Below are positions 45,202 to 46,243 of a stretch of 57,937 nucleotides of DNA, piece by piece (position 1 is the first letter of the stretch; every line of letters starts with the position of its first letter). The notes beneath the pieces are model-generated. The model was given only the letters and a program-made list of their open reading frames with translations. It was not told the DNA's origin and ran no database searches. Both the position numbers and the translations under genes were made by a program. This stretch comes from Candidatus Omnitrophota bacterium (GTDB lineage: Bacteria; Omnitrophota; Gorgyraeia; 1-14-0-20-64-10). The stretch lies in the NCBI GenBank assembly GCA_016201735.1, contig JACQCH010000053.1:1-57937 (forward strand). The letters are read 5' to 3'.

Positions 45202-45263
45202 TCTCGATAATAGAAAATTCCATTAGCGGGGCCTGGATTTGAACCAGGGACCTTCAGGTTATG

Positions 45264-46198
45264 CGTGCCACTGCAGCTTTCGCTGCCTCCGGCTCTTGGC
45301 CGAAGTTTGTGGTCTGGACTATCCCTTCATCCGCCAAACTATGGCGGATGCCCGCCGTTAATGTCCGAAGCATTCATAGGCGTAGGCGAATTTGGCATCC
45401 ATGGAAGGGACTTGTGGCACATACGACCTTACCAATACCCACATCTGTTTGCTGTTCTCTGAATTGAAGTGGGATCGGTAATATTCCCTTCTTTCGCCAT
45501 TTCTCATCCGCCTCTCAGGATTAATGAGGCCTGTAATCCCAAAAACGGATGAAAGGTGGCCCAACAATCTCTGGACCTCTTCCAGCGGAAAACTATGCGT
45601 TGCGATTGTGAAGCTGGGTTTCAGGTAATAAACGGATCCATCCCGGTGGAACTTTTTTCGCTTCCGAACGCTGCCATCATCACACAACAACATTGCTAAC
45701 CCAACCGGATGATCCATAAACCTGATTTTTTGGGTAAGGCTCCTCTTCCCATCCTTACTAAACCACCGGCTTATAATCCTCATCCTTCCGCCAGCAGTAA
45801 AGGAGAAAAGGTGTTTCATCCCTTCCCCGTTTTGAGACGCGTGAATGACAGGCTTCTTAATCCCAAACAACCTGACGAATTCATCGCGTTTCCACGCAAC
45901 CAAATCAGCACATCTCTCGCTGTGCGAGATAGTCCACTCGACTGTCGACCTTTGTTTCGCCCTTCGCCTTACATACGCATCTCCTAAAATCATCCCGATG
46001 AGGAATGACCTTGCATAGGAGGTACTTTCTTGGCCCTTCACAACAGGACCGCTTTTTTCTGCTTCGGACACAGTCTCTACACCTCTCCGCTCAAAACTCC
46101 TGAGCAGATTTGGCTCGGGATTCCCAGTGAAGGGTTCCCCGAATTTGACGGGTGTTGCCTCAGCCGTTACCGGCTGAGCGGCCCAGAAGAACTTTCTA
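45264..46198 (-). ncRNA. group I intron (~935 nt), Azoarcus/IC3-like core
   Basis: Follows U33; GTCAAATTCGGGGAACCC (46132-46149), GGTGTAGAGACT (~46072-46084), GATGAAGGGATAGTCCAGACC (~45311-45331), terminal G at 45264. Confidence 0.88.
45358..46071 (-). CDS. LAGLIDADG homing endonuclease encoded within the tRNA-fMet intron
   Basis: Two LAGLIDADG-like motifs: FLIGMILGDAYV and PVGLAMLLCDDGSV. Confidence 0.85.
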   Translation of the reverse strand: MSEAEKSGPVVKGQESTSYARSFLIGMILGDAYVRRRAKQRSTVEWTISHSERCADLVAWKRDEFVRLFGIKKPVIHASQNGEGMKHLFSFTAGGRMRIISRWFSKDGKRSLTQKIRFMDHPVGLAMLLCDDGSVRKRKKFHRDGSVYYLKPSFTIATHSFPLEEVQRLLGHLSSVFGITGLINPERRMRNGERREYYRSHFNSENSKQMWVLVRSYVPQVPSMDAKFAYAYECFGH

Positions 46199-46243
46199 AG
46201 CCTGACGAGCTACCAGACTGCTCCACCCCGCAGTAGGACTTTA

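Follow-up and report, generated by a model that had tools for sequence, protein, structure and literature searches.

We analysed the full 57,937 nucleotides (nt) of contig JACQCH010000053.1 from Candidatus Omnitrophota bacterium (GCA_016201735.1; hereafter the window), in which a mobile group I intron, of the type found in bacterial tRNAs, very probably splits the initiator tRNA (tRNA-fMet) gene behind U33 and carries a LAGLIDADG enzyme as a replaceable passenger. A previous reading of the letters without database searches (the sequence-only reading) had proposed that two minus-strand halves make up a complete initiator tRNA with a 1:72 mismatch, separated by an insert of about 935 nt that follows U33 and ends in G. 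Both proposals held: joining positions 46232-46199 to 45263-45224 gives 74 nt that ARAGORN folds as tRNA-Met(cat), U1 and U72 are unpaired, and the insert is exactly 935 nt long with its terminal G at 45264. The joined sequence further shows A11:U24 and the CAU anticodon as initiator features; of the three G:C pairs canonical for an initiator anticodon stem, two are present and the third is replaced by A29:U41. When introns were allowed, ARAGORN likewise chose c[45224,46232] and an intron of 935 nt, but mis-assigned the isotype. A chance match to a tRNA was ruled out by the 74-nt fold together with covariation in the intron core. At default settings, the standard tRNA and Rfam scans both missed the split gene, and such scans can miss intron-split initiator genes of this sort.

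The identification of the insert as a group I intron, likewise anticipated from the letters, was confirmed by its core, in which P2, P3, P4, P5, P6, P6a, P7 (with a bulged A), P8, P9, P9a and P9b can all form, P3 and P7 in a pseudoknot. Covariation was evaluated over 22 homologues with their open reading frames (ORFs) removed, all of which had been found through the homing endonuclease (HE) or a tRNA half and not through core structure. Across this set, 93.5% of helix cells were paired compared to 34-43% in slid controls, two-sided changes were observed at 41 of the 61 core pairs, and none of 500 shuffles reached any of these measures. In P1, exon GGCU pairs with the guide GGCC with a U33.G wobble at the 5' splice site, and a P1 of 3-4 bp with this U.G pair was found in nearly all homologues; a simple scan of locus L022 gave a P1 of only 2 bp, probably because the searched region excluded its guide sequence. 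As a separate observation, the contig ends of L026 are identical over 123 nt, giving a 1018-nt circle that joins the intron 3' end exactly to the 5' end and is 92.7% identical to the L022 intron, which is suggestive of what an excised, full-length circularised intron would give if the dataset is RNA.

The LAGLIDADG ORF fills J7/3, which measures 715 nt in the window and 620-767 nt in 18 introns with such an ORF, compared to 4-6 nt in introns without one. Its start codon follows the P7 5' strand without a gap and its stop codon ends one nucleotide ahead of the P3 3' strand, while the first and last codons pair with each other over 12 bp (GTGTCCGAAGCA/TGCTTCGGACAT, one G.U included) in a P7.1-like stem. 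Pairing of the ORF ends recurs across loci, with a mean stem score of 8.5 for arms of the same locus, against 5.4 for cross-locus arms and 5.0 for arms after shuffling (0 of 20000 permutations). With the start codon placed directly after the P7 5' strand and the ORF ends paired in a core-closing helix, competition between translation and splicing is expected.

The ORF had been read as LAGLIDADG from its letters, and the profile search agreed (LAGLIDADG_2, PF03161, 57.6 bits against a cut-off of 25, E 2e-15). The AlphaFold model (predicted local distance difference test, 92) found I-SceI and I-WcaI as its best PDB matches (E about 1e-12, template modelling score about 0.6), and the fold search also matched the bI3 maturase and the bifunctional endonuclease/splicing factor 1p8k. 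The product has two LAGLIDADG motifs and an I-SceI-like modelled fold. It shares the two-motif monomer fold with I-SceI and I-WcaI at about 20% identity, the sequence similarity to I-SceI being weak; these two enzymes sit in organellar introns. Both motifs retain their acidic residues in the window and in close relatives (GMILGDA and LLCDDG), and comparison with the ORF of L006 (synonymous rate 0.24, non-synonymous rate 0.07, ratio about 0.28) indicates that the ORF is under purifying selection. Profile searches of the window ORF and of the host genome found no PDDEXK_5 domain.

Three observations weigh against the interpretation of an active intron in a sole initiator gene. The Intron_gpI covariance model (RF00028), a check that the sequence-only reading had proposed, gave a divided answer, as a laxer search matched the 5' half of the window intron only (22.7 bits against a gathering score of 50 bits, E 0.0024). 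Homologues without a J7/3 insertion, whether ORF-less or with an ORF in P1, exceeded the gathering score (L008, 67.3; L041, 67.1; L068, 54.1 bits), and we attribute the low value in the window to the insertion of about 715 nt that splits the core. In addition, the window forms only 4 bp in P1 and 2 bp in P10, and the assembly (67 contigs, 95% complete) lacks several other tRNAs, so that a second tRNA-fMet gene could lie on a missing contig and the case for a sole initiator is strong without being absolute.

The sequence-only reading had pointed to the consequences of this being the only tRNA-fMet gene. Searches of the 1.81-Mb host genome (34 tRNA-model matches) with ARAGORN, the tRNA covariance model, patterns for the 5' and 3' halves and a scan for orphan T-arms found no second initiator tRNA, and the two other CAU tRNAs present (C16:51073 and C26:34840) have paired acceptor ends and elongator-type D stems. 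In the host genome and each of 42 related genomes (43 in all), the initiator pattern matched exactly once. The split gene is thus probably the only initiator tRNA gene of the cell, and the lineage appears to rely, for every start of translation, on a working ribozyme in a tRNA that cannot be replaced. Separately, at C60:51424-51720 of the host genome (G000), a stretch resembling a degenerate tRNA lies about 260 bp from an orphan T-arm, the two being perhaps remains of an integration site.

Database searches returned 86 relatives of the LAGLIDADG protein at E <= 1e-3, with record titles of Elusimicrobia, Omnitrophica/Omnitrophota, Desulfatirhabdium, Pyrinomonadaceae and Desulfobacterales, plus 26 metagenome loci. 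Most of them are inside tRNA-fMet introns, four are in CAU tRNAs of Ile2 or elongator type (L013, L022, L029 and L033), and one is inside an apparent tRNA-Arg(UCU) (L035). The pairing of intron and enzyme outside cyanobacteria, which had been singled out as unusual, is therefore present but is not an isolated oddity, given the related LAGLIDADG introns in CAU tRNAs of metagenome-assembled genomes labelled Elusimicrobia, Omnitrophota, Desulfatirhabdium and Pyrinomonadaceae. With the patterns used, no relative was found in IMG/VR that would indicate a phage or virus source. Five HEs in tRNA-fMet introns (L032, L034, L036, L037 and L040) showed altered catalytic motifs (GK for GD in motif 1 of L037; CDA, CDV, CDR or CDT for CDD in motif 2) and may be nickases, maturases or decaying forms. 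Another relative, at L028:1501-2300 on a 110-kb contig, lies beside a tRNA-Arg(UCU) gene and an apparent part of another tRNA and is possibly a free-standing HE.

The states of the tRNA-fMet locus were then compared among the 43 genomes with a recognisable 5' half (window included), of which 31 were intronless, one was cut by a contig end and 11 had introns; three loci that duplicate the window or stem from the phylum-wide search are not counted here. Five of these introns carry a PD-(D/E)XK ORF starting in P1 (L041, L044, L045, L067 and L068), five are ORF-less, and the window intron alone contains a LAGLIDADG ORF. A profile search of 61 genomes detected PDDEXK_5 at all five P1-ORF loci, and L041 was also confirmed singly. 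The contrast that the sequence-only reading drew with the PD-(D/E)XK intron of Synechocystis accordingly recurs within the window's own family, in which genome G003 (L041) has a PDDEXK_5 ORF in P1 of a similar core. The LAGLIDADG protein was detected in just 3 of 401 genomes of the phylum, and the other two have an ORF-less tRNA-fMet intron with the LAGLIDADG gene outside, just downstream. This arrangement was also observed at L008, L009, L010, L016, L017 and L020, and several of the free-standing genes have a MazE-like gene before them and a PDDEXK_5 gene after them (e.g. L008). Both ORFs are open in one intron at L021, within the contig's reach; at L030 the LAGLIDADG ORF is intact and the PD-(D/E)XK ORF is stopped at a conserved codon; and only a PD-(D/E)XK remnant is kept at L025. 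The occurrence of one core type with a PD-(D/E)XK ORF in P1, with no ORF, with both enzymes or with an adjacent LAGLIDADG gene argues that the enzyme is a replaceable passenger. Independently of this comparison, TAA occurs at the same codon (Q of IQVKSAW) in PD-(D/E)XK ORFs of two different lineages (L017/L011 and L030), and the PD-(D/E)XK ORF of G029/L068 has an internal TAG.

By its enolase neighbours and their record titles, the host is nearest to Omnitrophica/Elusimicrobia and probably belongs to Omnitrophota; L006 is Elusimicrobia according to NCBI and the other neighbours are Omnitrophica. Synonymous difference between the window and L006 was 0.21 for the HE, compared to 0.58 for enolase and 0.63 for ftsB, and blastn aligned the two in one block of 84% identity spanning the tRNA and intron, the next block upstream being at 72%. 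The low value of the HE relative to the housekeeping genes indicates that intron and HE moved, or were converted, after the lineages split, and supports a recent lateral transfer of the HE. In the core tree, the neighbour of the window and L006 is the PD-(D/E)XK intron L041 (support 0.93) and that of L007 is another PD-(D/E)XK intron, L067 (0.88), while a separate cluster of LAGLIDADG introns includes that of Desulfatirhabdium (0.977). Because deep nodes of this tree are weak (0.08-0.8), its use was restricted to the window/L006/L041 grouping and the cluster of other LAGLIDADG introns. The HE tree unites the window, L006 and L007 in a single clade (0.998) and groups the window HE with the free-standing HEs of Omnitrophota (1.0). 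The association of the window/L006 and L007 cores with different PD-(D/E)XK introns, while their HEs form one clade, suggests that the enzyme moved between resident introns, at moderate supports and with small sampling.

These relationships raise a scenario for the tRNA-fMet site that we consider about evenly balanced between right and wrong, in which the ribozyme stays while a LAGLIDADG enzyme in J7/3, whose coding ends double as the core-closing helix, first joins a PD-(D/E)XK enzyme in P1 and then replaces it. L021 (both ORFs open), L030 (PD-(D/E)XK stopped) and L025 (remnant) might, with a similarly even chance, be visible intermediates of this exchange. In some Omnitrophota, both genes are found together outside an ORF-less intron. 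Alternatively, intron and LAGLIDADG ORF may have arrived as one unit from outside (e.g. from Desulfobacterota), as the frequency of LAGLIDADG introns in tRNA-fMet genes of other phyla would allow; we regard this as unlikely, though worth serious consideration, because the window core groups with a PD-(D/E)XK intron of its own family and apart from the cluster that contains the Desulfatirhabdium intron, and its HE groups with Omnitrophota free-standing HEs.

For a mobile group I intron with a passenger endonuclease, the following course is proposed. The intron transcript would fold, and a guanosine bound in P7 would attack at U33.G in P1, after which exon ligation by self-splicing would yield tRNA-fMet. 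The ORF would be translated from unspliced or excised intron RNA into a monomeric two-motif enzyme, which may cut tRNA genes that lack the intron at the conserved anticodon-loop sequence CU^CAUAA, and repair of the break would copy the intron into the cut gene, i.e. homing, of which the patchy distribution and the low synonymous divergence are indirect signs. The protein could instead be mainly a maturase, kept since the enlarged J7/3 needs folding support, with DNA cutting secondary or lost. Consistent with such a role, the ORF lies in the catalytic core from P7 to P3, where folding help would be useful, two of the fold matches are splicing-related, and group I introns are known to encode LAGLIDADG maturases, a bacterial example being that in Thermotoga 23S (PMC3984707). 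We nevertheless consider a maturase role improbable, as the acidic residues of both motifs are intact, close relatives of the protein sit outside, beside ORF-less introns, the low synonymous divergence indicates recent lateral spread, and ORF-less cores of the same type persist, which means that the protein is not generally required.

There is very little to favour the idea that the intron no longer splices and is decaying in a tRNA copy that the cell could spare, a highly improbable reading in view of the intact core helices and exons, the apparent purifying selection on the ORF and the searches of the host genome, which returned no second initiator. An archaeal-type, protein-spliced bulge-helix-bulge intron would also reside in an anticodon loop, but this explanation has a practically negligible chance of being correct, being contradicted by the complete group I core with its covariation and by insertion after U33 instead of one nucleotide 3' of the anticodon, the canonical site according to PMC4090602.

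The relation to the cyanobacterial intron was judged from published descriptions. The group I intron in tRNA-fMet of Synechocystis PCC 6803 (655 nt) encodes I-Ssp6803I, a PD-(D/E)XK enzyme, in P1 (PMC1995217, PMC3073962), and it shares with the window the initiator tRNA host, insertion in the anticodon loop and an intron-encoded endonuclease. The same type of enzyme, likewise in P1, occurs at L041, L044, L045, L067 and L068, whereas the window lacks PDDEXK_5, has its LAGLIDADG ORF in J7/3/P7.1 and belongs to a non-cyanobacterial host. Group I introns of tmRNA are already known to carry homing endonuclease genes (HEGs) in the P7.1 region (PMC11915505), so the position of the window ORF is not unique; these introns likewise have a LAGLIDADG HEG at P7.1 in a bacterial tRNA-like gene, but are inserted in the T-loop and not in the anticodon loop of an initiator tRNA. 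The tRNAscan-SE 2.0 paper attributes missing fMet or Ile2 calls to group I introns, as in tRNA-Ile2(CAU) of Acidovorax and Burkholderia (PMC8450103). The tRNA-Ile2(CAU) introns of Azoarcus, Acidovorax and Burkholderia resemble that of the window in being group I introns of CAU tRNAs, and homologues of the window HE are also present in tRNA-Ile2-like genes (L022, L029), while no endonuclease is mentioned in that paper. Group I introns in tRNA genes of Patescibacteria, as reported in a 2025 preprint by Nakagawa et al. that is cited in PMC12641178 and whose title announces a novel insertion site, are likewise in tRNAs of uncultured bacteria, but of another phylum.

The literature searched, which included few subscription papers or preprints, yielded no LAGLIDADG ORF in a tRNA-fMet intron, no two enzyme types in one tRNA intron and no HEGs beside an ORF-less tRNA intron. 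Introns in tRNA-fMet, LAGLIDADG enzymes and P7.1 HEGs are each known, and their combination and the HE-exchange series appear unreported in that literature, which is weak evidence of novelty. The natural series, from no intron through ORF-less introns, P1 PD-(D/E)XK, both enzymes and J7/3 LAGLIDADG to adjacent genes, makes the long-debated issue of endonuclease gain, swap and loss by introns directly testable with small constructs, and the window and its relatives record how such parasites exchange and shed mobility genes.

Table 1. Positions in the window of the split initiator tRNA gene, its intron and the upstream genes.
Feature	Position	Strand	Sequence and basis
5' exon of initiator tRNA(CAU), ends at U33	46199..46232	-	TGCGGGGTGGAGCAGTCTGGTAGCTCGTCAGGCT; sequence reading, ARAGORN fold
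3' exon of initiator tRNA(CAU), C34 to A73, CCA not encoded	45224..45263	-	CATAACC...CCCCGCTA; ARAGORN fold
Group I intron, 935 nt, terminal G at 45264	45264..46198	-	Sequence, core fold, covariation
Internal guide sequence, pairs with 5' exon GGCU (P1)	46180..46183	-	GGCC; pairing scan
P2 hairpin, GNRA tetraloop	46159..46178	-	CTCAGCCG-GTAA-CGGCTGAG; fold, covariation
P3 5' strand	46147..46152	-	CCCGTC; fold, covariation; 100% of cells paired
P7 5' strand, bulged A, guanosine-binding helix	46072..46077	-	GAGACT; fold, covariation
LAGLIDADG homing-endonuclease-type ORF, 237 amino acids, GTG start, fills J7/3	45358..46071	-	Profile, fold, J7/3 comparison
P7.1-like helix 5' arm, first ORF codons	46060..46071	-	GTGTCCGAAGCA; end-pairing test
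P7.1-like helix 3' arm, last ORF codons (CFGH)	45361..45372	-	TGCTTCGGACAT; end-pairing test
P3 3' strand, 1 nt past stop codon	45351..45356	-	GGCGGG; fold, covariation
P8 hairpin	45328..45350	-	CATCCGCC...GGCGGATG; fold, covariation
P7 3' strand	45316..45320	-	AGTCC; fold, covariation
P9 domain with P9a and P9b (GAAA tetraloop)	45268..45312	-	CCAC...GTGG; fold, covariation
Enolase and ftsB/DivIC genes, upstream of tRNA	47181..48772	-	eno-ftsB-tRNA-fMet order common to relatives

Between ftsB and the tRNA gene, an ORF of 310 amino acids with a signal-peptide-like start and no Pfam match (46244-47176, minus strand) represents an inserted gene within the otherwise conserved eno-ftsB-tRNA order. 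The host genome (G000) contains a second split tRNA at C29:2808-3441 (L001:1159-1792), a tRNA-Asn(GUU) with a group I intron of about 558 nt within the anticodon (RF00028, 70 bits) and an HNH-like ORF whose profile score is under the cut-off. The recA gene of the same genome (C31:6848-7360, L003) has an intein-like insertion with a LAGLIDADG_2 domain.
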